A DNA stretch of 21,416 nucleotides. Source: a virus. Shown here in pieces: positions 4,259 through 21,416 of this stretch (the stretch's first letter is position 1; each line of letters opens with the position of its first letter). A model generated the notes under the pieces. The model worked only from the letters and a program-made list of their open reading frames with translations, was not told where the DNA came from and made no database searches. Location of the stretch: positions 1-21,416 of the IMG/VR virus record IMGVR_UViG_3300005581_003260; one strand, written 5' to 3'. The position numbers were made by a program, and so were the translations under genes.

Positions 4259-4977
4259 GAAATGCTCCAGTTATTTAGATAGCCTTTAACATTATTAGGA
4301 ATATCATCTGTTCTTTGTTGATAAGATGACAATTCTCTTATAACCGTCAAAGCATCATGATGCAATATATTTTTTATATTAGTATTATCAATACTAAGCG
4401 TCTTAAGTAGTTCTGGTACATTAATATCTAATCTTTTAGCTAATACGTCAATAAAATTAATCTGATTATTAGTAATTTTAGTAACATTATCGCTACTAAT
4501 ATCATCTTCTATATTTTCGGCTAGTTCTTCTGCTGCCACTACTTTTCTTAGTCTCATAGCTCTTCTAAGAGCCCTTCCTTCTGCTCGTGTTTCTGCAACA
4601 GCCACAGGATGATTGCGATATACTTTATCACAATTTCCCCAATATACGTCAGCAGCACCACTTACGGTCTTAACTTTACAAGCTTCGTTTGTTTCTGGAC
4701 TTAAGTCATACCATGTTATAGAATGAACTACAGAGGCTCTTTTTTCATTAGAAGGCTCAGGAGACTGAACAACAGTAGAGTCGGACTGTATAACAGAACA
4801 ATTCATTACTTTTTCAAAGACTCTACGCAATCCATCTGTTGTAGGATTACCATTAATTTTTTCATCATCAGATAATTGATGTAATACAAAATCTGTCCAC
4901 TCTATATCTCCTATGCCAACCTTTTGATTTACTTCTGTAGGATTAGTTACTACTTCAGTATTTTTAGCCTTAGCCAT
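4255..4977 (-). CDS. Putative Erf/Rad52-like single-strand annealing protein
   Basis: 240 residues. Residues 82-125 form a beta-strand run. The helix AETRAEGRALRRAMRL (128-143) resembles the AETRA-GRAL helix typical of Erf/Rad52/DdrA-type annealing proteins. The C-terminal segment starts ITNNQINFIDVLAKRL (168-183), like the small TxxQIxxIxxLA domain often found at the end of phage recombination proteins. The family would bind single-stranded DNA and pair complementary strands. The call is inferred from these motifs alone; an alternative is a conserved phage protein of other function beginning with the NPTTDGLRRV segment (44-53). The ATG at 4977 has a strong AGGAG SD (4984-4988, 6 nt spacer). 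The gene overlaps the upstream endonuclease by 8 nt and the zinc-ribbon gene by 4 nt. Confidence 0.5.
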   Translation of the reverse strand: MAKAKNTEVVTNPTEVNQKVGIGDIEWTDFVLHQLSDDEKINGNPTTDGLRRVFEKVMNCSVIQSDSTVVQSPEPSNEKRASVVHSITWYDLSPETNEACKVKTVSGAADVYWGNCDKVYRNHPVAVAETRAEGRALRRAMRLRKVVAAEELAENIEDDISSDNVTKITNNQINFIDVLAKRLDINVPELLKTLSIDNTNIKNILHHDALTVIRELSSYQQRTDDIPNNVKGYLNNWSIS

Positions 4978-5767
4978 CTGTATCTCCTATTTCTATAATA
5001 TTAGTATTACTTTTATTTTTATCTAGATTTTTAAGGGAAACTAAAAGATTAGAACATATTAAATTAGCTCTAGCCTTAGAAAAATCCTTAGTTTGCTTGA
5101 TTCTAATTAATTTATAGCCCTTGCCGATAAGTAAACCAGCCTTTTTCTTATCATATACTATATTTTTTTGTAAAACATCTTCTCCCCAAACAGGAGCAAA
5201 GTGTGAGGGGCCATCAATTTCTATAGCTATGTTCATAGTAGGCAGGAAAATATCTATTTGCAACTTGGTATTCGCTAGAATATGTTCTTTATGGAATTCT
5301 GTTTTAAAGCCCTGATCAATCAAAAAATTTAGAACAAAGTGCTCTAGCTTTGAGCCAACCTTGCTGCTATGTCTTACTGCTAAGTTAGCTTTATGTAACA
5401 TATTTGCTTTTTCATCATCGCTCTTTTTATTCCATAATTCTTGATATATTAGTTTTTTCTTTTGTAGCTCTTCTTCACCCAACTCGTCCCACTTCTTCAT
5501 AACAGACATGCCTATGTTTTGTTTTTCTTTTTCTGATCTTTCTCTACCCTTTGTTGGATGTTTATGTTTACCTGTTTGTAATGCGTTTTTTTGTGCTTCT
5601 GATTTAGTTTTAATCTTAATCCCAAGTCTTTTGGCATCCCTAAGAATTTTATTAGGATATGTATTATATTTATCCGCTATGTCTCTAAAGCTTGTATTTA
5701 ATTTAGTATATAGTTCATTTATCATATCTATTTTAGCAGCATCTGATAGATCGTTATAGTTTTTCAT
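4970..5767 (-). CDS. VSR/PD-(D/E)XK-like endonuclease with HTH and NUMOD-like region (putative homing endonuclease)
   Basis: 265 residues. The N-terminus has a helix-turn-helix (about 16-50, TSFRDIADKYNTYPNKILRD). A basic segment follows, containing a GKHKHPTKGRERSEKEKQNI-type pattern (66-85) that resembles the NUMOD3 DNA-binding motif of homing endonucleases. The C-terminal nuclease domain shows E142 in KLEHFV, D172 in QIDIFLP, E183-x-D185 in AIEIDGPSHF and a basic RIKQ strand, the VSR-like PD-(D/E)XK arrangement. It would cut double-stranded DNA at a specific site. Start: ATG with SD AAGGAA 7 nt upstream. It overlaps both neighbours (14 and 8 nt), so it is integrated in the operon rather than sitting in a visible intron. 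A mobile-element origin is inferred. Confidence 0.65.
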   Translation of the reverse strand: MKNYNDLSDAAKIDMINELYTKLNTSFRDIADKYNTYPNKILRDAKRLGIKIKTKSEAQKNALQTGKHKHPTKGRERSEKEKQNIGMSVMKKWDELGEEELQKKKLIYQELWNKKSDDEKANMLHKANLAVRHSSKVGSKLEHFVLNFLIDQGFKTEFHKEHILANTKLQIDIFLPTMNIAIEIDGPSHFAPVWGEDVLQKNIVYDKKKAGLLIGKGYKLIRIKQTKDFSKARANLICSNLLVSLKNLDKNKSNTNIIEIGDTDG

Positions 5768-7193: not shown

Positions 7194-7659
7194 AATATTT
7201 AAAAACCATTTTACAAGTTTGGAAAATAACCCTTTGCCACATTTCTAAATTTGATATATCATTTTTATTATCTAATATTTTATGATACGAAGTAGCCCAT
7301 GATTTGGCAATACTTTCATTTAATGCTATTTTATATGCTGAAGGAAACTCATATTTATGGGTTAGTGTTTCATCCTCTATAACATCTCTTGGTCTAGATA
7401 TATGGTCAATTAGTAGTACTGGTATATGAAATTGAATAGAAATATTTTTACATTTTTCATAATATAAAAATTTATTATTACAAATAATTATATGAGGACA
7501 GTCTTTACCAAAATATAAATGATCAAACGCGATCAAATTATGACCTAGTTTTTGTACCGTTTTCTCGAAAATCATATTGTCTACAGGAGTCCATAATATA
7601 TTAACTTTATCATTATTATTTATGGTTTCTCTGGCCAAAATACCGGTTACAGAATTCAT
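7186..7659 (-). CDS. Hypothetical protein, possibly a glycosyltransferase-like fragment
   Basis: 157 residues. Alternating hydrophobic strands (KVNILWTPVD, HNLIAFDH, HIIICNN, IPVLLIDHISRP) suggest a Rossmann-like N-terminal domain of the kind found in GT-B glycosyltransferases, but the nucleotide-sugar-binding half and any E-x7-E motif are missing. The ATG overlaps the stop of the upstream glycosyltransferase by ATGA, and the stop overlaps the next gene by 8 nt, so it is made as part of the same coupled block. Function is not recognised; it may be an accessory acceptor-binding subunit or a decayed enzyme. Confidence 0.5.
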   Translation of the reverse strand: MNSVTGILARETINNNDKVNILWTPVDNMIFEKTVQKLGHNLIAFDHLYFGKDCPHIIICNNKFLYYEKCKNISIQFHIPVLLIDHISRPRDVIEDETLTHKYEFPSAYKIALNESIAKSWATSYHKILDNKNDISNLEMWQRVIFQTCKMVFKYYG

Positions 7660-8765
7660 GGATTTAAAACACCTTCTACAAATGATTTTTCACTAAATTG
7701 TAATTTATTAAAGTTGGCTAATTTTTGCTGTTTTTCAGTAGATGTTAACTCGTATGCTTTTCTCATTTGCTCTTTGATAGAGTCTAAATATGGTTCTCTC
7801 CATTTTTCATAAATAGTATAAGTATTTTCCATATAATAATCTTTACTATAAATATTAGTTAAAAAGCTTTCTATCTCAAGACCATTAGATTTGTTAATAT
7901 ATGTATTGGCTCCTGTGCCACTATTAGTGATTGTTAAATTATTAAATAACATAGATTCAATAGCACTCGCCCCGAAAGATTCACACCTACAAACATTAAC
8001 ATAGCAATCACATTGTTTGTGTAGCCTCATCATATATTCTTGTTCATAATATCCTATAATAACATGAGGAGCTTGTACATATTTACTATTAATTCTGAGT
8101 GCTCTTTCTACTTGTTGTATATCATAAGTGATTATTTTTTCTGCTTCTTGATGGTCAAATCCTGTAATATCAGTTTTGATAATTAATTTTACATCGTCAT
8201 GTTTTCTAAATTCTAGAAAAAATGCAGCTAGTAACGCCTTAATATTATTTTTATCTTGATGTTTCCCTATATAGTAAAATACAAAATCTTTATTTGGATT
8301 ATCAAATAGGGGATCATAGGTTTTTTCAAATCTAGATAAATCAAATGGTTCTGGCAGAACCTGAATTTTGGTACTTGTCCCCGCTTGCTGTAATGACCTT
8401 TTGGACCAATCAGATTGAACTATAACGCGATCCATTAAATTAATACGGTCCACCCACCCAGTATGATTAATGCCCCAAGTGTCAATATCAGTAATTGCTA
8501 TATTTTCTCCAAACTCTTTTCTATATTCAAAACAGTTAGGAATTCCGTGCTGAATTACCATATCATAATATTTACTACTATTATCTTCGAATTCATTATA
8601 GTCTTTACCTGACTCATTTCCGCTATCTAGATATGGAGTAAAATATATGGGACGAATACTAAGATTAACATCAAAATTATATCCTAGAGCATCTATATAT
8701 CTTCTGGAGGATCTTCCCAAGCCAGTATTTTCTTTATATGGACCTATATATAGTATATTTTTCAT
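7656..8765 (-). CDS. GT4-family glycosyltransferase
   Basis: 369 residues with the GT-B two-Rossmann layout. The N-terminus MKNILYIGPYKENTGLGRSSRRY is a typical acceptor-domain start with a Gly-rich loop. The junction IQVLPEPFDLSRF precedes the donor domain, where FVFYYIGKHQDKNN corresponds to the first donor strand. The GT4 E-x7-E signature appears as E262-SFGASAI-E270. The enzyme would transfer a sugar from a nucleotide-sugar donor, with retaining chemistry in this family. It has no signal peptide or membrane helix, so it probably acts in the cytoplasm on phage DNA, a virion protein or a glycan precursor. It starts 1 nt after the stop of the other glycosyltransferase. Substrates cannot be told from sequence. 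Confidence 0.85.
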   Translation of the reverse strand: MKNILYIGPYKENTGLGRSSRRYIDALGYNFDVNLSIRPIYFTPYLDSGNESGKDYNEFEDNSSKYYDMVIQHGIPNCFEYRKEFGENIAITDIDTWGINHTGWVDRINLMDRVIVQSDWSKRSLQQAGTSTKIQVLPEPFDLSRFEKTYDPLFDNPNKDFVFYYIGKHQDKNNIKALLAAFFLEFRKHDDVKLIIKTDITGFDHQEAEKIITYDIQQVERALRINSKYVQAPHVIIGYYEQEYMMRLHKQCDCYVNVCRCESFGASAIESMLFNNLTITNSGTGANTYINKSNGLEIESFLTNIYSKDYYMENTYTIYEKWREPYLDSIKEQMRKAYELTSTEKQQKLANFNKLQFSEKSFVEGVLNP

Positions 8766-8766
8766 A

Positions 8767-10377
8767 TTAATAATTTAGAAAATCGTTAGCGACTATAGCA
8801 GAAGGGTTGTCTAAAAATTTATTTAGTGTTACTTTATTATTAAACCATACCTCTAAAGTTTTAAGAGCATCTTGTTGTTTATAGGGGGATACTGATTTGT
8901 CTGATATAATATATCCATTATCTAGCCCCATTATGACCTGCTGAATAAAAAAACTACTCTTTAGCTCAGGAGCTTCTAAGATATTATCAACAATGTTATA
9001 GATAAACTCCCTATTATTAGTTGTTTGTTTAGCTGTTTTATCAATTTGATTAAAATGTTCCTCTGGTATACTAGACCATCTAGAAGCATCAGTAGCACTA
9101 ATATTATCTATAATATCTTCAAAGGCTTTGGCAGTATAGTCCCAAGAATGCTTATTTATAGTTTTTATTCTTAGATTCTCTGAGAGTTGTGTTTTTTGTG
9201 ATATTGATAAATTTTGAAATTGTTTAATTAAATCTATACATATATTATTATTTGGATGTACTCTATCTGAGTTATGGTCATGATCTCTAAATACAGATGC
9301 TACTGGAATTTTTTGACCACCCAGATCATCTGACAACTCAGCCATTGCTCCGTGATCAACGGTTAAAAATGGTATGCCACAAGAAGCTGCTTCTAATGGA
9401 GGTATACCAAATCCTTCGCATATAGCATATTGTATATATAGATCAAATGTATTATATATTTTAGCTAAATCTTTATCCTCAATACCATGAGCAACATTAG
9501 CCAATATCATTTGTTTATTAGAACATTTTGGGCATATAGCATGTGCTCCTTTCCATTTCATTGGAAGCCAATGCTTGCAATTTTTACATAAATATGTGAA
9601 TAGTACTTTATCATAAATATTATGTTCTAGTAATAAATCTGGAATATCCCACCCTATTGTTTCTGGATAACTAGAATGTAAATATAGATATGTTGGAGTT
9701 TTGGTATTATGATTAATATTACTTATAATTTTGAATAGATCTGGTATGAGTTTTCTTTTTTGATTTCTCATAACGGAACCAATAATAAAAGCATCCAGAT
9801 CTAAACCTAAACTTTGTCTACAAGATATTTTATTTAATGGTTTAAATATATTTGTATTTATCGAATCTTTAACTATACCCTTGCATTTAATATTATAGAG
9901 TTCTTCTATAGTATTTTTTGCCCATTCTGTGTGTGTTAATAGCGTATCACAATTCAACATTAAATCCAGCCACTCATGTTTAACAGGAAATGAGTCTATT
10001 GTTGGAGCTAAAATCCAATGAAACTTATTTCTAAAAACGGATGTTCTTTGAAAAGAAGCCATAAAAATATCCCTGAAATCTATTACTATATCAGGTTTAA
10101 AATGTGCTACAGCAACATCAAATCTCCACTGGCCAAAAGAATTGCTGGGGCTAGAATTATACTGAGCAAATCTTGCGTCGTTTTTTTCAACTGCGTTTGG
10201 ATATATTTTCCAAGGAAAATCTTTAGCTTGTGATGTTGTTCTATAACAAGACAGTTCGGCTATATCGTATTTGTTAGTGGCAAATAGTCTTTCTAAGATT
10301 GATTTGGTATAATTGCCGTAGCCAGATTTTATGTGTGCAGATTCTGTACAGAAAAGTATTCTTTTTTTTATAGTCAT
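8767..10377 (-). CDS. GT4-family glycosyltransferase with inserted zinc ribbon
   Basis: 536 residues from the ATG at 10377. A longer frame begins at an ATG at 10407, but that codon sits in the loop of the ssb terminator, and MTIKKRILFCTESAH is the natural start of a GT-B domain. The donor domain opens with FIIGSVMRNQKRKL and carries the GT4 signature E321-GFGIPPL-E329. Between them is a four-cysteine insertion, C264-x2-C267 and C282-x2-C285, which looks like a zinc ribbon. About 120 C-terminal residues are a helical extension. No SD is visible upstream of 10377, although the 3' arm of the terminator contains GGAGGGG some 20 nt away. It heads the glycan block and runs into the next glycosyltransferase with a 1-nt gap. 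Donor and acceptor are unknown. Confidence 0.82.
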   Translation of the reverse strand: MTIKKRILFCTESAHIKSGYGNYTKSILERLFATNKYDIAELSCYRTTSQAKDFPWKIYPNAVEKNDARFAQYNSSPSNSFGQWRFDVAVAHFKPDIVIDFRDIFMASFQRTSVFRNKFHWILAPTIDSFPVKHEWLDLMLNCDTLLTHTEWAKNTIEELYNIKCKGIVKDSINTNIFKPLNKISCRQSLGLDLDAFIIGSVMRNQKRKLIPDLFKIISNINHNTKTPTYLYLHSSYPETIGWDIPDLLLEHNIYDKVLFTYLCKNCKHWLPMKWKGAHAICPKCSNKQMILANVAHGIEDKDLAKIYNTFDLYIQYAICEGFGIPPLEAASCGIPFLTVDHGAMAELSDDLGGQKIPVASVFRDHDHNSDRVHPNNNICIDLIKQFQNLSISQKTQLSENLRIKTINKHSWDYTAKAFEDIIDNISATDASRWSSIPEEHFNQIDKTAKQTTNNREFIYNIVDNILEAPELKSSFFIQQVIMGLDNGYIISDKSVSPYKQQDALKTLEVWFNNKVTLNKFLDNPSAIVANDFLNY

Positions 10378-10388
10378 TATGTATATAT

Positions 10389-10419
10389 AAACAAATAGCC
10401 CCTCCATTAGAAGGGGCTA
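10389..10419 (-). terminator. Rho-independent terminator downstream of ssb
   Basis: TAGCCCCT (10396-10403) and AGGGGCTA (10412-10419) form a perfect 8-bp stem with an 8-nt loop. Read on the minus strand it is followed by TTTGTTTAT, a U-rich tract. It begins 18 nt after the ssb stop. There is no U-tract on the plus-strand side, so it is directional. Confidence 0.88.
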
Positions 10420-10436: not shown

Positions 10437-10850
10437 TTAAAACGCTACAACTTCCTCGTTTTCCTGACTATCAACACCATCATTTGTTGCGCCAGTGGCA
10501 ACCTTGGCCTGACCGCCCTTAGAAACCTTTTGAATACGAGCAAAATTATTAACTCGTACCTTCATAGTTGATCTCTTAACTCCATCCTTTTCCCATGTGT
10601 CATTCCTTAGTGATCCTTCGATCATTACCAGATCGCCCTTCCTAAAAGAAGATGATATGGCTTCGGCTCCACTATCCCATGCTTCACAATTAACAAAGGT
10701 AGTAACCTTATCAGTATCACCATTATTCTTGGTAAACTCTCTGGATACAGCAACGGTAAAATTTACTACTGCCGTTTCCTTTCCAGATGGATTTACATAT
10801 CTAATTTCGGGATCCCTAGCCAAATTACCTCTCAAAATTACTAAATTCAT
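10437..10850 (-). CDS. ssb: Single-stranded DNA-binding protein
   Basis: 137 residues from the ATG at 10850. The frame is open further upstream, but MNLVILRGNLARDPEIR is the canonical SSB start, and AGGAG (10856-10860) lies 5 nt before it. The OB fold is complete: GNLARDPEIRYV, NFTVAVSR, TTFVNCEAWDSGAEAI, FRKGDLVMIEGSLRNDTW and the final strand NNFARIQ. A disordered linker ends in the acidic, hydrophobic tip SQENEEVVAF, the counterpart of the protein-interaction tail of bacterial SSBs. It coats single-stranded DNA at forks and probably recruits replication and repair partners. It is a separate transcription unit, with its own sigma70-like promoter overlapping the end of the polymerase region and a terminator right after it, so it can be expressed strongly and independently. 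Confidence 0.95.
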   Translation of the reverse strand: MNLVILRGNLARDPEIRYVNPSGKETAVVNFTVAVSREFTKNNGDTDKVTTFVNCEAWDSGAEAISSSFRKGDLVMIEGSLRNDTWEKDGVKRSTMKVRVNNFARIQKVSKGGQAKVATGATNDGVDSQENEEVVAF

Positions 10851-10855
10851 AAATG

Positions 10856-10860
10856 CTCCT
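10856..10860 (-). promoter_or_regulatory. Shine-Dalgarno site deciding the ssb start
   Basis: AGGAG on the minus strand, 5 nt from the ATG at 10850. It favours MNLVILRG as the SSB start over the in-frame upstream extension. Confidence 0.85.
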
Positions 10861-10895
10861 AAAATCAAAATGTATATGTAACGAACCACGCTTAT

Positions 10896-10925: not shown

Positions 10926-12533
10926 TCAAACTTGCCAACATTTTTTAACTATAAATGTCTCCTTATCCCTGGACCTATCAAGCTTAATTAATAGTGTATT
11001 TCCGTCTATAAGTAAATCTCTATATTGAGAAAATTCTTCCGGAAAAATCACCAAATCTGCTGACCCAGTAGAATCTGTAACTTTAATAAAGGCCATTTCT
11101 TGACCAGGATTAACTCCTTTTTTAGTTTTAATTATATTGATATCACTAATTTCCGCCCCAAGAATAGGAGTTTTTGTTTTGGTGCCTTGCGATAAGTCTT
11201 TACACTCAACGTTTGCGGCATATATATCACATCCATCAATTTTATGACAAGTAATGGATGCTCCTAAATAAAATTTCTCATTATTAGCTAGCCATTCTGG
11301 ACTATCATCCAAATTATATGGAGGATGTTTTAAAGTATTGATAAGAGATATAATTGTTTGCTTTCTTTTAGCTGTTATTTTAATCATACTTGAATCAATA
11401 AGCATTTGTAAAGCATCATCTATTTTCTGATTATTAAATATTTTTAATAACACATCAGCTTCTCTGTTTGTTAGATTATTTAGTATATCATAATAAAATA
11501 ACATTCTTGTTCTTGAGATTGTAGAGTTGCTTATAGCACCACAAGATATCAATCCCTTACAGGCCGTAGAATTGATATGTCTAAGAATATAACAATAAAT
11601 TTCTATAAAATTCATAGAACTAACATCGTATTGTTTTAGTAGATCTAGTAGTTTATCATATACAGAATCGCCCAAGCCTTTAATGTTAGTTAAACCAAAT
11701 GAAATACTATTGTCTTTTGTATTAATAAAAAATTCTTTTTCAGGCTTAAGTATAGATGGTAATTTAATAGATATATTCATTTCATTAGCATTACTAATTA
11801 ACTCTTGTATTTCTTTAAGAGGATCTATTTTATCTTTAGCAAATTTTAAATATGATGCAAAAAATTCTATAGGAAAATGTGCTTTAGCATATGCTGATAA
11901 ATATGCATTATAAGCATAACTCACAGCATGACTTTTATTAAAAGAATATCTTTGACTTTTCTCTATCCATCCGAATAGTTCTTCGGCTTCACTCTTAGAG
12001 ATTATATTCATGGATTCTGATTTTTGTAGAAACAACTTCTTAATCTTAACCATTTCTTCTGGCCTTTTCTTACCAATGGCTTTTCTAAGCTTGTCGGCTT
12101 CTGTAAGATCAAAATTAGCTATTTTCTGACAAATTTGCATAGCCTGCTCTTGATATACCATCTCTCCGTATGTATTACTTAATATTGGTTCTAAGGCAGG
12201 ATGAAAAAAATCTAGTGCTTCATTTTTATTTTTCTTATCTATATAATGATTGCTTACAGATTTTCCATCTCTATAAGCTTCTAGACATCCTGGCCTCATG
12301 ATACTGATAAGAGCAGAAAGTTGTTCTATATTTTCTGGCTTAAGTTTTTTAGCCATAGATTGACCAAGCCTAGACTCTAACTGAAAACACCCCTTTGTGT
12401 TGCCATCAGATATCATTCTCCAGGTTTTTGGACATTCCAAATCAATGTGTTCAATATCAATATCAAAATCAATAGTTCCCTGATTATTAATGCAGAATTT
12501 GCATTCACAATCGTCGAATGTTGCGGTTTTCAT
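10926..12533 (-). CDS. dnaE: DNA polymerase III alpha subunit, C-terminal half (fingers, HhH, OB)
   Basis: 535 residues continuing the DnaE fold exactly where the 630-residue protein ends. TKGCFQLESRLG (46-57), ALISIMRPG (74-82), TYGEMVYQEQAMQI (121-134) and YSFNKSHAVSYA (196-207) are the hallmark fingers motifs. ISFGLTNIKGLGDS (277-290) is the helix-hairpin-helix region. ILGAEISDINIIKTKKG (457-473) to the C-terminus is the OB domain. The tau-binding tail of bacterial alpha is missing, and no clear clamp-binding motif was identified. Catalytic aspartates are not in this chain. The N-terminus has a cysteine cluster (C9, C11, C14) not found in E. coli DnaE. The ATG overlaps the exonuclease stop by ATGA; the SD AAGGA is far (12 nt), which fits coupling. 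With the N-half the total is 1165 residues, close to E. coli alpha (1160). Confidence 0.9.
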   Translation of the reverse strand: MKTATFDDCECKFCINNQGTIDFDIDIEHIDLECPKTWRMISDGNTKGCFQLESRLGQSMAKKLKPENIEQLSALISIMRPGCLEAYRDGKSVSNHYIDKKNKNEALDFFHPALEPILSNTYGEMVYQEQAMQICQKIANFDLTEADKLRKAIGKKRPEEMVKIKKLFLQKSESMNIISKSEAEELFGWIEKSQRYSFNKSHAVSYAYNAYLSAYAKAHFPIEFFASYLKFAKDKIDPLKEIQELISNANEMNISIKLPSILKPEKEFFINTKDNSISFGLTNIKGLGDSVYDKLLDLLKQYDVSSMNFIEIYCYILRHINSTACKGLISCGAISNSTISRTRMLFYYDILNNLTNREADVLLKIFNNQKIDDALQMLIDSSMIKITAKRKQTIISLINTLKHPPYNLDDSPEWLANNEKFYLGASITCHKIDGCDIYAANVECKDLSQGTKTKTPILGAEISDINIIKTKKGVNPGQEMAFIKVTDSTGSADLVIFPEEFSQYRDLLIDGNTLLIKLDRSRDKETFIVKKCWQV

Positions 12534-13231
12534 ACTTTGAAAGAATCCTTAAACTGTATTTTTTGACTTAATTTTTTATGTAGTCTTAGAAATCTGAGTA
12601 GAATTTGAGCACAATCCTCAACATCTTTAGAGGCATTGTGAGCATTTGTTTTATCAATACCTAAATAATCTCTCATATAGTCTAGAGACAAGCCTCTTAC
12701 CTCAGAGATATAGCTCGTCCACATCCCAAATAAATGCATAATATCTATTTTATCTCTTGGATGAAATAAACAAGTTTCTTTTTCTTTGTTTGTATTATTA
12801 TACTTATTACTTAGTCTATTTACAATAGCCATATCAAATCGCAAGATATTATATCCTGCCGCTATTGGTGCGGTAAATTGTGATTTTTTACTATTACTAT
12901 TAGACTTTAAATGATATTTATCTAGATATGAAACAAACTGCGCCCAAGCATATTTTTGCTCAGGATACCCCTTCCATTCTGTTAAAACTTGTTCTCCAGA
13001 GAGATTGCGTATTTTGCCGTGCCAGTCAAGGATGTCAGAATCAGTATAAGGATTATCCGTGTTACAGTTAACTAATTTTTCTGGTTTTAGAAAAGTATTG
13101 AATTCAGATTTAGGTATAATTTCCAATTTAATTGGATCAATAATTATAGCAGATAGTTGTACCGGACTACATTCTTCAGGATTTTTACCATCAGTTTCAA
13201 AATCAAATACGCAAATTTTATTGTTGATCAT
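12530..13231 (-). CDS. DEDDh 3'-5' exonuclease (DnaQ-like proofreading)
   Basis: 233 residues with the complete DEDDh set: D10 and E12 in FDFETDG (ExoI), N128 and D133 in GYNILRFD (ExoII), and H198 and D203 in HNASKD (ExoIII). Such enzymes remove mispaired 3' ends and act as the epsilon-type proofreading subunit of polymerase III. The gene lies between the two halves of the alpha subunit, which strongly suggests physical association with the split polymerase. Translation is well supported: ATG at 13231 with GGAGG at 13241-13245 (9 nt spacer), inside the preceding small gene. Its stop overlaps the next ATG by ATGA. No clamp-binding motif was recognised with confidence. Confidence 0.9.
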   Translation of the reverse strand: MINNKICVFDFETDGKNPEECSPVQLSAIIIDPIKLEIIPKSEFNTFLKPEKLVNCNTDNPYTDSDILDWHGKIRNLSGEQVLTEWKGYPEQKYAWAQFVSYLDKYHLKSNSNSKKSQFTAPIAAGYNILRFDMAIVNRLSNKYNNTNKEKETCLFHPRDKIDIMHLFGMWTSYISEVRGLSLDYMRDYLGIDKTNAHNASKDVEDCAQILLRFLRLHKKLSQKIQFKDSFKV

Positions 13232-13403
13232 CTATTACAGCCTCCACTTGTGCTTTGTATTCAAATAAAGTTTCTTTATTGTCTCTTAATCTAATAGCAT
13301 TAGCATGAATCTGACAACATGTTTTTTTAATTTCTGGAATCTTAAGATATTCATATTCTTTATATCTAAATCTTTGTCCAGCTAGAATTTCTTCAAATAG
13401 CAT
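13218..13403 (-). CDS. Small conserved-looking protein between the polymerase halves
   Basis: 61 residues: MLFEEILAGQRFRYKEYEYLKI..., then NAIRLRD..., then a final EYKAQVEAV strand. The spacing (start 'F--I--GQ-F', then 'YLKI', 'NAI-L', 'V-V') resembles the small beta-barrel phage proteins of the type 'F-dL-xGd-F...Y-Ki...NAv-L', whose function is unknown. A good SD (AAAAGG, about 6 nt from the ATG) lies in the end of the N-terminal polymerase gene. The frame overlaps the polymerase gene by 11 nt and the exonuclease by 14 nt, the spacing of a real operon gene. It may bridge the polymerase halves or the exonuclease, but nothing in the sequence proves that. Confidence 0.6.
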   Translation of the reverse strand: MLFEEILAGQRFRYKEYEYLKIPEIKKTCCQIHANAIRLRDNKETLFEYKAQVEAVIDDQQ

Positions 13404-15285
13404 ATTCAGCCTTTTTTATTTTTAAAATATCCCTAATACACATAATTTTATCTAATAAAGCGATTCCAAGAATATCAAACTTAATCACTCCGATAGACTC
13501 TAAATCGCTCATCTCAAACCCAGCAATATTTTGTTCTGTTTTTGGATCCCATATCATTGGACATATAGTATTTAATGATGTGTTAGATATTGCTATACCA
13601 GCGGCGTGTTTGGATTGATTATATTTTGCTCCCTCCAATCTAATAGCCTGTTCAAATCGTTTAGCAAGTGGTCCGTATAGCTGTCCGTCATCACCAATAT
13701 AGCACCATTCTTTAAGTTTGGATCCATTATTTTCTAAAGCCCATCGTAAAATAGATGCTTCTCCGTCTTCATCTTTCATTTCCTGTAATTCATCTGCAAT
13801 TTTAGCCTCATCTGGTATGTGCTTAGTGATACGATTCATTTCTTCAAAGGATATATTACCATATATGCGTAACACTTCTTTAAGAGCACCCCTTCCTTTA
13901 AGAGTATTAAAGGTAATCATTTGAGAAACCTTATCATTACCATATTTATTTTTTATATAATTAATAATATCTTCTCTATATTCAATCGGTACGTCCACAT
14001 CAATATCTGGCATGGATATGTTGGAATCTGTATTTCTTCCAGTATTATAAAACCTTTCAAAGATTAAATCATATTTAATAGGGTCTATAGCAGTAATGCC
14101 AACCAGATAAGAAACTAAGCACCCAGCAGCAGAGCCTCTCCCTGGTCCCGGCAGACAGCTTTTATTTCTTATATATAAGACTATATCTCTAATAATAAGA
14201 AAATAACTTGCAAGATTAGTGGACTCTAAAATACTTAGTTCCTTTTTTACTCTGTCTACATAAATATCCTGTTGTTCTTTTGGTATTTTATTTTGAATCT
14301 TTTCTAACCATCCTTGCCTACAAAGATGTCTTAAGTATTCAATAGGCTTTTGTTGATCGGGACACTCAAAGGTTGGTAATTGAGGAGCAGACAAAATCTC
14401 ATAACTTTCGCACATATTATCAATTACTATTGTTGTGTCCAATTCTTCTTTATCGTGAATCGATAGCATTTCTTCATATGAAAGTATATAGTACTTTTCT
14501 GATGTAAAAAAACTAGACATGGGCACCTTTTCATTATTAATAATTTTATTAGATATTTCTGGTAGTGTAACTTTTAATGCACTACACAGAAGAACTCTTT
14601 GATCTACCGCATCAGACGATTCACAATAATGTGCATCTATTGATGCTGTTTTCTTTAATTTGTATTCTTTACATAGATCTCTTAAAGCTTTACCTATTAT
14701 TTGTTGGTGAACATTATCAGTATCCATCAATTGTATTTCTACAAATACATTTTCCTCACCAAAAACAGAATATAGTTTCTTGATATGATCCAATCCTTTA
14801 GTCTTCCAATCATCTAATAGTTTACTTTCATCAAAGCTATATATAGTATCGGCCAATGTAGATCCTGGATGACCAGTAATACAAATTAGATTATGACTAT
14901 CTAGAGTTGTTTTATGTATAAGATCAAGATCTAATCTTGGCTTATAATAAAAATAATTAGCATTATTGGATAAAGAGACAAGACTTATCAAGTCCTGCCA
15001 GCCATTAAAATTTTTGCATAAAATAACCATGTGTGATAGATCACTATTGGTTTTATCTTTAATTGATGCATCCTTTGGGGAAATATATAGTTCACAACCC
15101 ATTATTGGTTTAATGTTATTTTTTTTCATAGTTTTATAAAAATTAACATTACCAGATATAGTACCATGATCAGTAATAGCGCAACTTTTTGCTCCAATAG
15201 TCTTGCATCTTTTAGCTATTTGTTCTGGCTTAGACAAACCATCCAAAAGACTATAGTGCGTATGAACATGTAGCGGAATATACAT
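13393..15285 (-). CDS. dnaE: DNA polymerase III alpha subunit, N-terminal half (PHP and palm)
   Basis: 630 residues. The PHP domain has PLHVHTHYSLLDG (4-16, metal-site histidines 6 and 8), ITDHG (37-41), GCELY (63-67), GHPGS and IDAHY near 216-220; the conserved His/Asp set suggests a metal-binding PHP. The palm has GPGRGSAAGCLVSYLVGIT (380-398), PDIDVD (426-431, catalytic D427 and D429) and IKFDILG (601-607, D604, equivalent to E. coli D555). The chain stops about 26 residues after D604, where bacterial DnaE continues into the fingers. The start ATG overlaps the nuclease stop (TAATG) and has AGGAG 7 nt upstream. It should synthesise DNA only with the C-terminal half. No intein sequence is present at the break. 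Confidence 0.95.
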   Translation of the reverse strand: MYIPLHVHTHYSLLDGLSKPEQIAKRCKTIGAKSCAITDHGTISGNVNFYKTMKKNNIKPIMGCELYISPKDASIKDKTNSDLSHMVILCKNFNGWQDLISLVSLSNNANYFYYKPRLDLDLIHKTTLDSHNLICITGHPGSTLADTIYSFDESKLLDDWKTKGLDHIKKLYSVFGEENVFVEIQLMDTDNVHQQIIGKALRDLCKEYKLKKTASIDAHYCESSDAVDQRVLLCSALKVTLPEISNKIINNEKVPMSSFFTSEKYYILSYEEMLSIHDKEELDTTIVIDNMCESYEILSAPQLPTFECPDQQKPIEYLRHLCRQGWLEKIQNKIPKEQQDIYVDRVKKELSILESTNLASYFLIIRDIVLYIRNKSCLPGPGRGSAAGCLVSYLVGITAIDPIKYDLIFERFYNTGRNTDSNISMPDIDVDVPIEYREDIINYIKNKYGNDKVSQMITFNTLKGRGALKEVLRIYGNISFEEMNRITKHIPDEAKIADELQEMKDEDGEASILRWALENNGSKLKEWCYIGDDGQLYGPLAKRFEQAIRLEGAKYNQSKHAAGIAISNTSLNTICPMIWDPKTEQNIAGFEMSDLESIGVIKFDILGIALLDKIMCIRDILKIKKAEYAI

Positions 15286-16349
15286 TAAACTTCTCCTGGT
15301 GCCTTGTATGTACCAACACTATATCCTGGTAATTGATAAACGTCAACCGCTTCGTTCATTCCTCGTAATTCAAGATCGTGCTTAATTTGTTCACATTGGG
15401 TCATAAAATTATTTTTTGGTGTTATTTGATTATCTCTATATTCTATTGTTGGTAAAACATGTTTATCATTTTGAAATGTATTTTTCCCAAAATGACATAA
15501 CTTGCTACACATCCAAGACTTTTTAAGTTGAGGCTTTTGTGTTTTTTGAATATGAATAAATTTTTCTTTAAGCATATATTCGGTCTTCATCGCGTTATCT
15601 GCATTATCAAAACAAACAGAGAATGGACCACCATCATTAATAAAGTTTATTGTTACAATGATATGTTTGAATTCTGGAAATAATCTATGTACAGCATAGT
15701 GGTATAATCTTAGTTGTGGGTCATCTTCTAGTTTAGCTTGTGTTTTTTCTTCACCGGTCGCCCAGTTTAGTCTGCGACCAGTTTTCCAGTCAACAATTTC
15801 TAGTGTGTTATCGTCGATCTGTGTAATTAGATCCATTGTTCCTTTTATGGCTAGTTTACCACTAATTTTTTTGCCATTAATATCATAGATATAGTTAGCC
15901 CAATCTTTATTTATAGCCAAATCAAAATGCTGTTCTGATCTAAAAATATTGCGTCTTCTAGGATCAAACATACGATTATTTGCCCTAAGAGTTTTGCTAA
16001 TCCATTCTATACAGTCTTTTCTGTCTTTGTCTAGCCAAGAATGATGGGAGCATTGTGAGGTATAATAGTCATATACCTTATTAGCTAACGATAAAATAAA
16101 TTGATCGTTGAACATATCGTCTGTGTTTAGATCAATAGTTCCAACAATATCGTCTTCAATAATTTGTATTTTATCTTGATGGGCTTTTTTCATAATTGCT
16201 AGTATCTCTAGCACCTTATGAACAATAGTTCCTTTATCAGCCTTCTTATTAGACAGACCTCTTCTACCGAGAACATATTCGATAAAGTACTGCTGCTCAC
16301 ACATTGAATGGGTATTATACGATGAGCTTCTAAAGTATGTAATTATAAT
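15285..16349 (-). CDS. RecB/Cas4-like PD-(D/E)XK nuclease, probable AUU start
   Basis: The first ATG in frame is 16304 (339 aa), but it has no SD and would begin inside the first conserved motif. In frame upstream, codons encode SSSYNTHS directly before CEQQYFIEYVLG, recreating the family's 'S-S--nt---C---y---YvlG' start. AAGGA (16358-16362) lies 8 nt before an ATT at 16349, so an AUU start giving 354 aa is proposed. Residues below are numbered from 16304: GTIVH (25-29), GTMDL (155-159, D158), EIVDWKTG (169-176, D172 and K174), Q197/Y201 in QLRLYHYAV. Two cysteines (C266, C270) recall the C-terminal Cas4/AddB cluster, but a complete Fe-S set is not obvious. It probably degrades DNA ends. It overlaps the kinase stop and is coupled to the polymerase N-half. 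Confidence 0.85.
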   Translation of the reverse strand: MIITYFRSSSYNTHSMCEQQYFIEYVLGRRGLSNKKADKGTIVHKVLEILAIMKKAHQDKIQIIEDDIVGTIDLNTDDMFNDQFILSLANKVYDYYTSQCSHHSWLDKDRKDCIEWISKTLRANNRMFDPRRRNIFRSEQHFDLAINKDWANYIYDINGKKISGKLAIKGTMDLITQIDDNTLEIVDWKTGRRLNWATGEEKTQAKLEDDPQLRLYHYAVHRLFPEFKHIIVTINFINDGGPFSVCFDNADNAMKTEYMLKEKFIHIQKTQKPQLKKSWMCSKLCHFGKNTFQNDKHVLPTIEYRDNQITPKNNFMTQCEQIKHDLELRGMNEAVDVYQLPGYSVGTYKAPGEV

Positions 16350-16939
16350 GGTAAAAATCCTTTTTGTTTTAGAAAATTTGATAATAAAAGATTTTGTTGT
16401 GATATGGTCATATTTTGATTGTCTATGACAAGATCGAAGTTTTTTGCATCAAATCTGTTTTCGTCTAAAGCTACTTCGCTTTCGTGCTGAGAATTATAAG
16501 GATTCCTTGTTAACTTTACTACTAGACCTCCAGCATTTTTAATTGCATGTACTTCATTAGGAAACCTACAGTCAGCAATCAAACTAATCTTTTGTGTATC
16601 TTGCTTTATCTTTCTTATTGTGGTTTCTGACCAAACATTCGTTTTAAGTTTTCTAAACATATCGGTTCCGACCAGCTGCATAATTTCTCTAGCTGTAAGT
16701 TGTTTATTTTCCCAATAGCAGTCAACTAGTTGATTCTTTTGCTCGTCTGTACCATAACACTGATCATATGTTAAACCTAGTATATTTATACATATATCAT
16801 TTTTTAGAGAATCAGCAAAATTATATATTTTACATGAATCACTGCCAGATATAGTATCAAATATTTCTTTTGTAAACTGAGCACAAGTTGTTTTGCCCGA
16901 TTGTTTACGTCCAGCAAAGGCCAAAATAAAATTAGACAT
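16343..16939 (-). CDS. Deoxynucleoside monophosphate kinase
   Basis: 198 residues from the ATG at 16939 (a TTG at 16984 is in frame but lies in the primase gene; GGAT sits 7 nt before the ATG). Walker A is GRKQSGKTT (10-18). Later AREIMQLVGTDMFR and LIADCRFPNEVHAI...GGLVVKLTR match the T4 gene 1 type dNMP kinase pattern (lid and base-binding parts, DxRFpNE). The enzyme phosphorylates dNMPs to dNDPs, feeding dNTP supply for phage DNA synthesis; in T4 the relative handles dTMP, dGMP and modified dCMP. It overlaps the primase by 8 nt and its stop lies next to the nuclease start. Substrate range cannot be read from the sequence. Confidence 0.88.
   Translation of the reverse strand: MSNFILAFAGRKQSGKTTCAQFTKEIFDTISGSDSCKIYNFADSLKNDICINILGLTYDQCYGTDEQKNQLVDCYWENKQLTAREIMQLVGTDMFRKLKTNVWSETTIRKIKQDTQKISLIADCRFPNEVHAIKNAGGLVVKLTRNPYNSQHESEVALDENRFDAKNFDLVIDNQNMTISQQNLLLSNFLKQKGFLPL
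16358..16362 (-). promoter_or_regulatory. SD site pointing to a non-ATG start of the RecB-like nuclease
   Basis: AAGGA on the minus strand lies 8 nt upstream of an in-frame ATT (16347-16349). The ATG at 16304 is preceded only by GTATAATACCCATTCA, with no SD. Confidence 0.55.
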
Positions 16940-18098
16940 GCATTTTATCCATTTCTGGTATAATAGTTTGTTGTATATCTTCAATAGTCATATCCGCTAT
17001 ATCGTTCTTTATAATAGATAGTGTTTTAATATTATATGTACGATAACACTTATCATATATTTGTTTTGCTCCCACCTGACCAGCCTCATCATTATCTAAT
17101 AGAATTAATAAAGACATAGCTCCAGAGCAATCTAACAGCATTTTTTGCCTATCTCCTAATGAGGTTCCAAAAATAGCTATAGAATTATGGATACCAGCTT
17201 CTTCTAGTCTCCACACATTGCCTGGACTTTCGACAACCACAGCTATTCCGGTTTTTAATATATAATCTTTGGCAAACCATAGGTTGTAAAGATGGTCTTT
17301 AGCCTTAAAGTCTTTATTATGTTTCCATTTAGAATATTTCCAGCCAAATTCGCCATTTACACAATCAGTATTTGGATTATGATAATAAGAACACTTAGAA
17401 CATTTTTCATATATACTTCTGCCACTACATCCCACCATATGACTATACTGCTGGTTATATATAGGAACAACAATTCTATCAAACATTTCTTTATTAGAAT
17501 TGGTACATTGACCAACATCGTACTTGTCTAAAATCTTTTGAGAATAACCTCTTTTTAAATAGTAGTTTGCTGGAATATCTAATGCTTTTCTTACCATTTG
17601 TCTTGTTGGTAATTTATCTAGACTATCGGGTATATGAGATATGCTTTGTATATTTTTAATAAAAGCTTTTTTCTCCATATTAGTATAATTAACTTTAATA
17701 TCTTTTATATCTTTATTTAAGATTTTAAGGGCCATTTGCATAGTATTATCAAAGCTATACATTTCATCACCATCTTTCATCCAATTATTAGTTCTAACTG
17801 ATAATATGCCTCTTAAAAAACCAATAATAGATGGCTGAAAAATCCTTTCACAATGATGTGTTCGACAAACCCAATTACCACGATATGAATCCCCCACATA
17901 ATATAGATTAAGTGCCGATTCATTATCTCCACCATGTATTGGGCAAGCCATGGTGATCATTTTATTATTGTGTTTGCAATTAAGATCAAAAGTCTCACAC
18001 AATAAGTCTACATTATCACACAGTTCATCGCATACAGCCTTTATTTTAGCCTGACTAAACGAACGAGATTTCTTCTTCGTGTTGTTCATTATCTTCAT
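16932..18098 (-). CDS. DnaG-like primase
   Basis: 388 residues. The N-terminal CHC2 zinc domain has C52-x2-H55 in CPIHGGDNESALNLY and C78/H82/C83 in CRTHHC. The core has YLKRGYSQKILDKYDVG and DRIVVPIYN. The Toprim centre has E290 (VVVES), then AIFGTSLG and D335-N-D337 (LLDNDEAG). A second cysteine group (CSKC...C, about 233-246) is an insertion. It is shorter than bacterial DnaG (about 580 aa) and lacks the helicase-interacting C-terminal domain. It would make RNA primers for the phage fork. The start is uncertain: M1 (18098) or M4 (18089), both inside the helicase gene (overlap 44 or 35 nt), without a strong SD. The zinc domain needs the residues near this start. Confidence 0.92.
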   Translation of the reverse strand: MKIMNNTKKKSRSFSQAKIKAVCDELCDNVDLLCETFDLNCKHNNKMITMACPIHGGDNESALNLYYVGDSYRGNWVCRTHHCERIFQPSIIGFLRGILSVRTNNWMKDGDEMYSFDNTMQMALKILNKDIKDIKVNYTNMEKKAFIKNIQSISHIPDSLDKLPTRQMVRKALDIPANYYLKRGYSQKILDKYDVGQCTNSNKEMFDRIVVPIYNQQYSHMVGCSGRSIYEKCSKCSYYHNPNTDCVNGEFGWKYSKWKHNKDFKAKDHLYNLWFAKDYILKTGIAVVVESPGNVWRLEEAGIHNSIAIFGTSLGDRQKMLLDCSGAMSLLILLDNDEAGQVGAKQIYDKCYRTYNIKTLSIIKNDIADMTIEDIQQTIIPEMDKMHV

Positions 18099-19536
18099 CT
18101 GTGGTTATTTGAAAAGTATTTTTATTTTTACCAGAGCCATTATTTAGCTCTAATTTTGTTTGACCCTCAGTAATTTTAGCACACCAGCCCTTCATATGAC
18201 AATTAATATAATCATTGTCGTCTAAGCCTCCGCCGTGCCTACTTACTAGTGGTATTAATTTTCTATTGCCTGCTGATGGGCCATCCTCTGCTATTTCTTC
18301 GTCAGACTTGCGCTTAAAAATTGAGAAATTACTACATAGCCATATGATTCTATCTGAACCAGAAGCTGTATCAGTACTTTCTTTTGTGATGCCGTCACGA
18401 TTTAATTGAACAAATGCTACTACTGGTATTTTATATTTTGTAGCAAAATTATGTAGAGATGTCATCATGAATCCTAAAACTTGGTATTCTTTTAGATCCT
18501 GAGACATACCAGCAGAATCCATGAGTTTAAGATAATCATAAAATATAACACAATCTTTTGCGCTCCCATCATCATTTAAACCAACCTCTTTTATAATCCA
18601 TCTACGCATAATAGCTAGTTGTTCATCAAATGGTTTACCGGCTATAGATTTATAATAAAGTTTTATATTTTTTAATTTGGACTTAGCATCATAAATTTTA
18701 CTTTTTAGATCAGAGGAGTCTCTAAATTTACCAGTTTCTATTGTGTTTAAGTCTATATCTGTCATCATACCAATAATACGATTAATATGATCGTCCGTTG
18801 TCATTTCTGTATCCATATTTAAAACTGGTATTTTATTATTGGCCAAGTAAAATCCCATGTTGTCTGCTAATAGGGTTTTTCCAGTCTTGGGTCTTGCAGC
18901 AATAACATTAACAGTGCTTTTCCTTAAGCCTCCTCCTATAGCTTTATCATATATGGGAAATCCTGTGGATAAGCCTACTTGATCAACCGGATTATCTTCT
19001 AGATTTTGAATATATTCGTCTATATTTTTACCAATAGCTTCTGGCTCAGTCTTATTATCACCAAGCAGCATACCCAAATCAAAAACCTTACTCTCCGCTA
19101 TATTTAGAATATCGGAAATAGATTCTGATCCCGTAACCTCATGAAGCTCTTTTTGTGCAGAGCCTAGTTGATCACTAATATTTCTAGCTATTTCTAGCTT
19201 CTTTATTTTACTTGCAAATTTTCTTATGTTTGTTTGGTCTACTGGAAAATCTAAGATAGCTTTTATATGCATTGCCTCATCTTTTGATGATAATGCTTCT
19301 TTATATCCTAATTCCTGTGCTACGCTATATATGTATGCTAAATCTATAGTAGCATTATTATCGTTTGAATATATATGCTGTATACAATTATAGATTAAAG
19401 CATTACTGTCTATAGTAAATACTGCGCTAGATATTAGATCGCTTACATCTAAATAAGCATTTTCACCGTATTTACACAGTCCAGATAGAACTGCTCGCTC
19501 GGCAGATGGGTCAGCCAAATAGTCTTTATTTGCCAT
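18055..19536 (-). CDS. DnaB-like replicative helicase
   Basis: 493 residues. The N-terminal helical domain starts DPSAERAVLSGL (9-20), as in DnaB. A linker region follows, then GLSTGFPIYDKAIGGGL (188-204) at the start of the RecA-like core. Walker A is ARPKTGKT (214-221), the DnaB E-region is MDTEM (241-245), Walker B is CVIFYDYLKLM (329-339), the Q/R segment is FVQLNRDG (375-382), and RHGG (433-436) includes the likely arginine finger region. The ring-shaped hexamer unwinds the fork 5'-3' and pairs with the primase encoded next. The acidic C-terminus (TTDEDNEQHEEEISFV) may be an interaction tail. There is no SD; a TATAAT at 19548-19553 lies only 12 nt upstream with a poor -35, so a separate promoter is unproven. 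Confidence 0.95.
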   Translation of the reverse strand: MANKDYLADPSAERAVLSGLCKYGENAYLDVSDLISSAVFTIDSNALIYNCIQHIYSNDNNATIDLAYIYSVAQELGYKEALSSKDEAMHIKAILDFPVDQTNIRKFASKIKKLEIARNISDQLGSAQKELHEVTGSESISDILNIAESKVFDLGMLLGDNKTEPEAIGKNIDEYIQNLEDNPVDQVGLSTGFPIYDKAIGGGLRKSTVNVIAARPKTGKTLLADNMGFYLANNKIPVLNMDTEMTTDDHINRIIGMMTDIDLNTIETGKFRDSSDLKSKIYDAKSKLKNIKLYYKSIAGKPFDEQLAIMRRWIIKEVGLNDDGSAKDCVIFYDYLKLMDSAGMSQDLKEYQVLGFMMTSLHNFATKYKIPVVAFVQLNRDGITKESTDTASGSDRIIWLCSNFSIFKRKSDEEIAEDGPSAGNRKLIPLVSRHGGGLDDNDYINCHMKGWCAKITEGQTKLELNNGSGKNKNTFQITTDEDNEQHEEEISFV

Positions 19537-20442: not shown

Positions 20443-20839
20443 TTTTAATCCTTATTTCCCATTGACTTATTTGATCAAATGGCAGTTCTATATGCTCAAT
20501 ACCATTTAGTTCACACCACTCTTTTTTTTCTTGATCTCTCTTTTTATGTTTTATAAAACCGAGTGGAGTATTATGAAAAAATTTACTGAATTTATAATGT
20601 TGCTCTCCATGAACCTCTATACATTTTTTAATAAGGGGTAAATAAAAGTCTAAATAAAGAGTTTCTGATCTTCTTATATTGACGGGAACTTCTTCCAATA
20701 CTTGTAATGTAGGAAAACAAACATGGATTAAATCCCTGGCCTGTAAATGTAGGCTAGATTTATTTTGAATAGACCCATGTGATATATTACCGATTAATTG
20801 CCAATTATAAGAATTACCATCCAGATCTTTTACTTGCAT
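20432..20839 (-). CDS. VSR-like small endonuclease (PD-(D/E)XK)
   Basis: 135 residues. The core LYLDFYLPLIKKCIEVHGEQHY (61-82) has D64, E75 and then H77/Q80/H81, the D...E-x-H-G-x-Q-H-Y pattern of phage VSR/homing-type nucleases. RDQEKKEWCELNGI (101-114) and ELPFDQ complete the fold. The N-terminal 55 residues could form the first helix with E49/E50. Unlike the larger endonuclease at 4970-5767 it has no HTH or NUMOD segment, so it may be a nicking or repair nuclease or a homing enzyme reduced to its catalytic core. It starts inside the recombinase gene (10-nt overlap) with no clear SD. Substrate unknown. Confidence 0.65.
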   Translation of the reverse strand: MQVKDLDGNSYNWQLIGNISHGSIQNKSSLHLQARDLIHVCFPTLQVLEEVPVNIRRSETLYLDFYLPLIKKCIEVHGEQHYKFSKFFHNTPLGFIKHKKRDQEKKEWCELNGIEHIELPFDQISQWEIRIKNEH

Positions 20840-21416
20840 TTGATGCCCATCATGTCCTTAACTTTTATCCATAAATCGTCATAAACTTCTGGATGATCAA
20901 CTAAATACTGTCTTGTTTTCTCAAGACCCTGGAATTTTGGCTTGTCCTCCACAGATGACATAGTATACCATGCACCCCCCTTAGATACAAGACCCAAATC
21001 TACAGCCAGTGTCAATAGTTCCATCTGTTTATCAATACCTTGTCCATATCTAATATAGCTTGTAATTTTACCACCAGGAGCACCTAGAGCAGAACACATT
21101 ACTTGCCAATGTACTTCTTGGCCAATCTGTGGACTGTCTGTACTTAAATTCCAAGGACTAAAATAGTTGGCTTTAATTTTAATATCTGTTTGATAAGCAA
21201 TAGCCTGACCACTCTTTTCTTTCCACTCACTATGACCCATCCCTGGATTACCCATTTGATGAGTAATACCTATAACCACATTTCTATTAACAGGAATAAC
21301 ATTAGACACCTTCCTGCAAAACTTAGCCAATAGCTTGGCTCCATCTGCTCTTTGCATCTTATCCATATCGCTAGTAATTTCAGCTTCTGTGCATAGAGCA
21401 GAGTAGGAGTCAATGA
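20830..21416 (-). CDS. RecA/UvsX-type recombinase, N-terminal part outside window
   Basis: About 194 residues are visible, reaching the right edge with no stop, so the N-terminus and Walker A lie beyond it. The ATG at 21366 is internal: upstream codons read IDSYSALCTEAEITSD, the Walker B strand (VIDS-type) of RecA. Then come KLLAKFCRKVSNVIP, NVVIGITHQMGNPGMG (strand leading to loop L2) and EKSGQAIAYQTDIKIKA, followed by a RecA-like end (IRYGQGIDKQMELLTLAVDLGLVSKGGAWY, and PEVYDDLWIKVKDMMG). The protein would form filaments on single-stranded DNA and exchange strands, supporting recombination-dependent replication and repair. It is the most upstream gene seen in the replication block. The C-terminus is shorter than bacterial RecA. 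Confidence 0.93.
   Translation of the reverse strand, partial: IDSYSALCTEAEITSDMDKMQRADGAKLLAKFCRKVSNVIPVNRNVVIGITHQMGNPGMGHSEWKEKSGQAIAYQTDIKIKANYFSPWNLSTDSPQIGQEVHWQVMCSALGAPGGKITSYIRYGQGIDKQMELLTLAVDLGLVSKGGAWYTMSSVEDKPKFQGLEKTRQYLVDHPEVYDDLWIKVKDMMGIKCK

Follow-up and report, generated by a model that had tools for sequence, protein, structure and literature searches.

The DnaE of cyanobacteria is encoded by two genes whose chains are joined by a split intein, and PolC carries its exonuclease within the PHP domain of a single chain. Here we analyze another way of dividing such a replicase, in the virus record IMGVR_UViG_3300005581_003260, which was taken as the window in its entirety (21,416 bases): a DNA polymerase III (Pol III) alpha subunit of the DnaE type (family C) that is encoded by two separate open reading frames (ORFs), termed N chain and C chain, with the gene of a DEDDh exonuclease and a small gene between them. 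The locus shares with cyanobacterial DnaE the use of two genes, but here there is no intein; like PolC, it would unite PHP, polymerase and DEDDh exonuclease in one replicase, but with the exonuclease as a separate gene between the palm and fingers halves. This contrast with PolC had been drawn in an earlier note on the same DNA, and the exonuclease is indeed an ORF of its own downstream of the N chain. The closest functional precedent are the T4-type phages 25 and 44RR of Aeromonas, in which the replicase is encoded by two genes, gp43A and gp43B (PMC2988022, citing Petrov et al. 2010); the two proteins of phage 25 co-purify and are active, and the gap between the genes holds a homing endonuclease or an untranslated insert (PMC2988022). 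Both are phage replicative polymerases made from two genes, but gp43A/gp43B belong to family B with its unrelated fold, whereas in the present family C enzyme the gap is taken up by a conserved small gene and by that of a putative proofreading exonuclease, the split having become fixed throughout a large clade.

By sequence family, group 2.2 jumbo phages provide the closest precedent: a minimal Pol III alpha that is split, encoded by distant genes and accompanied by a PolB (Iyer et al. 2021, PMC7824862), the halves of which comprise the core catalytic and template-binding parts only, devoid of PHP and other Pol III domains (PMC7824862). In both cases a C-family module is distributed over two standalone proteins thought to reconstitute the enzyme; unlike the jumbo phage version, as that paper describes it, the present pair amounts to a near-whole alpha with PHP, HhH and OB, usually resides in one operon, and is accompanied by no PolB or PolA that we could find. 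Split inteins and a free-standing endonuclease are combined in the fractured genes of Dassa et al. (2009, as cited in PMC10343443 and PMC6892783), which likewise represent a broken gene with an insertion between its halves, and two relatives (L086, L072) show that arrangement elsewhere in the N chain; as far as the citing papers portray them, the fractured genes differ from the palm/fingers break, which lacks intein halves, and from the gap in the window, which contains no endonuclease gene. A word search of the phage DNA polymerase survey PMC11348598 gave no description of the N-exonuclease-C arrangement, and the clade is not described in the limited set of literature that we searched. Phage polymerases in two pieces have been described for other families, but a stable two-chain version of the bacterial-type replicase appears to be undescribed.

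Very probably, the main replicase of this phage is a non-covalent two-chain polymerase of the DnaE type with an operon-encoded proofreader, its assembly and activity being what we infer from the evidence below. The four genes concerned are as follows (lengths in amino acids, aa):

13393..15285, minus strand: N chain (DnaE-N), 630 aa, PHP plus palm/thumb
13218..13403, minus strand: small protein, 61 aa, 'SCC...NA' motif in relatives
12530..13231, minus strand: DEDDh 3'-5' exonuclease, 233 aa, RNase_T, PHROG 192
10926..12533, minus strand: C chain (DnaE-C), 535 aa, fingers, HhH and OB, with a short N-terminal extension containing CxC

The earlier note had reported four ORFs with overlapping frames, the 61-aa and exonuclease genes lying between the halves, and all of them are located where it placed them, on the minus strand; according to the coordinates, the overlaps measure 11 nucleotides (nt) between N and the 61-aa gene, 14 nt between the latter and the exonuclease gene, and 4 nt between exonuclease and C. 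Its assignment of PHP and all three palm aspartates to the 630-aa protein, and of fingers, HhH and OB to the 535-aa protein, is borne out by Pfam and structural models alike. In Pfam, the N chain contains PHP (PF02811, E 9e-37) and a complete DNA_pol3_alpha domain (PF07733, 1-260/260), and it exceeds the cut-off of the NCBIfam model TIGR00594 by 458.7 bits; the palm aspartates are found in PDIDVD (D427, D429) and KFDILG (D604). The C chain matches the fingers (PF17657, E 5e-46) and, marginally, HHH_6 (PF14579, 25.7 versus a cut-off of 25.6). Its Pfam OB hit is below threshold, and model residues 440-535 match OB folds with Z about 10-12.

AlphaFold models built from relatives (N chain, n = 43, predicted local distance difference test score (pLDDT) 85.8; C chain, n = 42, pLDDT 86.5) were aligned to solved structures. 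Residues 1-627 of the N model correspond to residues 5-581 of E. coli alpha (2hnh, Z 38.5, root-mean-square deviation (rmsd) 3.9, 569 aligned) and also to residues 6-641 of Taq alpha (2hpi, Z 40.7), while residues 15-535 of the C model correspond to residues 576-1073 of E. coli alpha (5fku, Z 19.9, 457 aligned, rmsd 8.3, the high rmsd indicating that domain positions differ) and to residues 639-1121 of Taq alpha (4iqj). The two halves thus tile one alpha (E. coli 5-1073), their seam falling at about 576-581, and hence no conserved part is lost at the break, as had been surmised from the sequence. The seam is located just past the palm strand that bears the third aspartate and the helix following that strand. 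Past KFDILG, the N chain ends in a variable tail of about 20 residues; the C chain begins with about 15 additional residues including the CxC, kept in most relatives, and lacks only the tau-binding region past E. coli residue 1073 (of 1160). Compared with a DnaE-type alpha, the pair therefore has PHP, palm, fingers, HhH and OB, but neither the tau-binding region nor a single polypeptide.

Relatives were collected from IMG/VR by scans with N, C and one distant C as queries, and sequences more than 90% alike were removed from the first set. The order N, small gene, exonuclease, C was found in 43 non-redundant loci with intact N, exonuclease and C, and in a second set of about 80 further split loci reaching down to about 40% identity. 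N and C are separate ORFs in every relative found, usually about 0.86 kb apart, and recurrence of the split in more than 100 contigs rules out a sequencing or assembly error, or chance. The survey for a shared break point that the earlier note had proposed therefore gave a positive answer; as to unsplit ancestors, none was found inside the clade, and among unsplit C-family genes, DnaEs of phages and bacteria come nearest, at about 30-35% identity. The halves need not be close neighbors: in L123 and L125, where N is absent nearby, a search of the whole record places it about 6 kb upstream of exonuclease-C on the same strand; in L125 the space is filled with metabolic genes, among them those of an aldehyde dehydrogenase and an aminotransferase. 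The distance from N to exonuclease-C is about 6 kb in L289 (7284-13412) and L290; in L289 this stretch encodes a glyoxalase-like protein, an aldehyde dehydrogenase, a dimethylargininase-like protein, an aminotransferase and two dehydrogenases, and the ORFs of L290 are of similar size.

The exonuclease of the gap is an RNase_T protein according to Pfam and belongs to PHROG 192 ('DNA polymerase exonuclease subunit'). Its residues D10, E12, D133, H198 and D203 are invariant (32/32), and its matches among solved structures are exodeoxyribonucleases and one PolC exonuclease domain. The spacing between exonuclease and C is -4 or -8 nt in 61 of 87 loci, an overlap that suggests translational coupling. 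The exonuclease might instead be an independent nuclease that shares the operon by happenstance and does no proofreading, and its weak likeness to epsilon and PolC models (best NCBIfam E about 1e-4) would be in line with this. We consider this unlikely, as the gene adjoins C in every examined clade locus with both and falls into PHROG 192, and as a PHROG 192 exonuclease gene likewise occupies the gap of a lineage with another break point. This lineage comprises L185 (2373-6560) and L291-L370; besides L185, at least 69 relatives have the full set. Its break separates a divergent PHP from the palm and holds the DEDDh exonuclease gene and a 73-aa ORF, giving the order PHP, exonuclease, 73-aa ORF, palm-fingers. 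This aquatic sister lineage looks like a gene-level parallel to PolC.

The second occupant of the gap, a small ORF between N and exonuclease, is present in 89 of 91 relatives with a shared SCC...NA motif and is missing in L022 and L025. The 61-aa protein of the window matches no Pfam family, and its match to phrog_8235 (E 0.0015) is too weak for naming.

Several features of the two halves speak for a working enzyme. The palm catalytic triad and the G..GRGS motif are invariant in 43 of 43 loci, and the active-type PHP signature (HHDHEHHDH, criterion as in PMC12926913) is present in the N chain of the window and in 41 of the 43; one of the two exceptions, L052, has a truncated start call that hides two positions, and the other, L033, is truly degenerate. 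Comparison of the window with its nearest relatives gave ratios of nonsynonymous to synonymous substitution rates (dN/dS), where dS was computable, of 0.05-0.09 for N, 0.04-0.14 for C and 0.03-0.14 for the exonuclease, and of 0.08-0.37 for the 61-aa gene, values that are rough since dS is near or beyond saturation; they indicate that both halves are under purifying selection. It is highly improbable, then, that the alpha gene is decaying, with the host replicase copying the phage DNA and N and C retaining partial jobs as PHP nuclease and DNA-binding protein: the missing tau-binding region and canonical clamp motif, and the frameshifts or degraded PHP signature in a few relatives (L024, L004, L033), would fit such decay, but the catalytic residues are invariant, dN/dS is low in both halves, and the halves are retained together across the clade.

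In 12 contigs of 76-233 kb, not certified to be complete, we found exactly one finger domain each and no match to PolA or PolB; N and/or the finger domain occurred once in every record. The split pair hence seems to be the only recognizable replicative polymerase of a large aquatic phage group. Some observations nevertheless weigh against a two-chain main replicase. The same 12 contigs gave no match to a beta-clamp C-terminal domain or a delta-prime-type loader, the sampled C rows contain no conserved internal beta-clamp-binding motif (QxxLF-like, before OB), and a second polymerase might have gone undetected, as the contigs are not certified complete. A search for a Gp23-type capsid protein yielded no match, but neither did its controls, so that it is uninformative.

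A working enzyme of one chain, produced from the two halves through protein trans-splicing, RNA splicing or translational bypass, can be all but dismissed: a split intein elsewhere in N of L086 and L072 does attest to protein splicing within the clade, but no intein model matches N or C, the N tail is short and variable, no known intron is found in Rfam, the gap encodes two conserved proteins under purifying selection, and the 6-kb distance in L123 and L125 makes cis-splicing or bypass very unlikely. The absence of intein motifs at the ends of the halves, already noted from the sequence, was confirmed by an NCBIfam scan at E up to 0.1, which was positive for the intein-bearing L086 (TIGR01445, E 2.8e-9); Rfam introns matched neither the window nor six broken or split relatives, a search that had no positive control since nothing matched. 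Neither the sequence of the junction nor the presence of two conserved genes in the gap lends support to frameshifting or bypass. The lack of an intein, the lack of an Rfam match and the short variable N tail together make two separate chains the best reading.

In a two-chain enzyme, PHP, thumb and the whole catalytic palm would come from the N chain, and fingers, HhH module and OB fold from the C chain. Non-covalent association across the palm-fingers hinge would probably create one active site, as the earlier note had envisaged, with catalytic aspartates contributed by the N chain and nucleotide- and template-binding fingers by the C chain. The exonuclease, encoded in the same operon and overlapping C start-to-stop, would serve as the proofreading subunit, possibly docking on the PHP domain by analogy with E. 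coli epsilon. One may go further and envisage an obligate multi-chain replicase of N, C, exonuclease and SCC/NA protein without a sliding clamp or clamp loader of its own, the overlapping genes allowing exonuclease and small protein to hold the halves or time their joining. This extension is conceivable, if doubtful; were it true, a broken alpha with a proofreader gene in the break would be a repeated design, as the L185 lineage has it at another hinge.

As to the origin of the split, trees were calculated with FastTree (86 rows) and then with IQ-TREE (30 rows). In the 30-row tree, the N-exonuclease-C members form one clade (support 100/100). Its sister, with weak support (84/47), is L184, where the break is at the same point and the gap holds an RNase HII gene and a zinc-ribbon ORF but no exonuclease gene. 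The cultured Rossellomorea phage phiT1 (PV767480; gp20/gp19/gp18) has the same palm/fingers break, with a 49-aa ORF (L100 4207-4356) and no exonuclease in the gap; it is placed elsewhere in the tree (100/99), but a single clade comprising phiT1, L184 and the N-exonuclease-C members is not rejected by an approximately unbiased (AU) test (p 0.107). By these sequence comparisons, convergence is the likely, if unproven, source of the shared break point. The split probably arose by insertion of a gene or homing endonuclease into the hinge loop, followed by long maintenance. Related loci suggest how a break of this kind could come about. In L036 and L037 the gap contains an HNH-like endonuclease ORF, which in L036 follows N and precedes the small gene, and Bacillus phage KLEB27-3 has an HNH ORF at FQxE; the split intein of L086 and the LAGLIDADG ORF of L174, described below, are further examples. 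The cultured phages phi19:2 and Anakin have annotated two-gene DnaEs with other break points.

Further breaks were seen among N-halves. In L086 (2041-5130; also in L072), the split intein interrupts the N-half between GPGRG and S, and a PD-(D/E)XK-like nuclease ORF stands on its own between the resulting pieces, so that alpha is encoded by three genes there. In L174 (2045-5119; also in L150 and L175-L181), the N-half has a further interruption immediately ahead of PDIDVD, where a LAGLIDADG ORF lies between the pieces; neither an intein nor an Rfam intron was found at this second break. In Mycobacterium phage Send513 (L102, 2498-6119), gp72 is annotated as 'sliding clamp' and aligns with profile positions 3-239, the PHP part of alpha; by this match, it appears to be the N-terminal piece that the gp74-encoded DnaE lacks.

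A two-chain reading would mean that the bacterial-type replicase, usually viewed as one large chain, can persist as two across a wide and diverse phage clade, and that E. coli alpha residues of about 576-581 mark a hinge at which family C enzymes can be broken, as has apparently occurred on more than one occasion. For bench work on the split, phiT1 would be the best model. The locus offers a natural design for split polymerases and reconstitution assays, and it bears on how proofreading exonucleases became built into PolC or stayed separate in DnaE systems. It also points to an annotation risk, as the halves may otherwise be labeled as two partial genes or pseudogenes.

The four genes are embedded in a replication operon with the order recombinase, DnaB helicase, primase, deoxynucleoside monophosphate kinase, PD-(D/E)XK nuclease, N, 61-aa gene, exonuclease, C and single-strand DNA-binding protein (SSB). 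The remaining members are:

20830..21416, minus strand: RecA/UvsX-like recombinase, PF21096, cut by the window edge
18055..19536, minus strand: DnaB-type replicative helicase, PF03796, PHROG 19
16932..18098, minus strand: DnaG-type (Toprim) primase, PF13662, PHROG 47
16343..16984, minus strand: deoxynucleoside monophosphate kinase, PF21448, PHROG 139
15285..16304, minus strand: PD-(D/E)XK (RecB/Cas4-like) nuclease, PF12705, E 8e-16, directly upstream of the N chain
10437..10889, minus strand: SSB, PF00436, E 4e-26, directly downstream of the C chain

The PD-(D/E)XK nuclease gene is syntenic and shares an operon with the N chain in most relatives, and the position of the SSB gene beside the C chain is likewise syntenic. 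We also considered whether RecA is split, which is ruled out by its frame being open to the window edge and by relatives having a RecA of about 340 aa. Outside the operon, an ORF of 1032 aa at 834-3932 (plus strand) has no match in Pfam or PHROG, and an ORF at 4970-5767 (minus strand) resembles phage homing/HNH endonucleases (PHROG 559, E 8e-14). Two glycosyltransferase genes (7656-10407, minus strand) lie beside the replication operon, and glycosyltransferases are found near alpha in L184 and L185 too.

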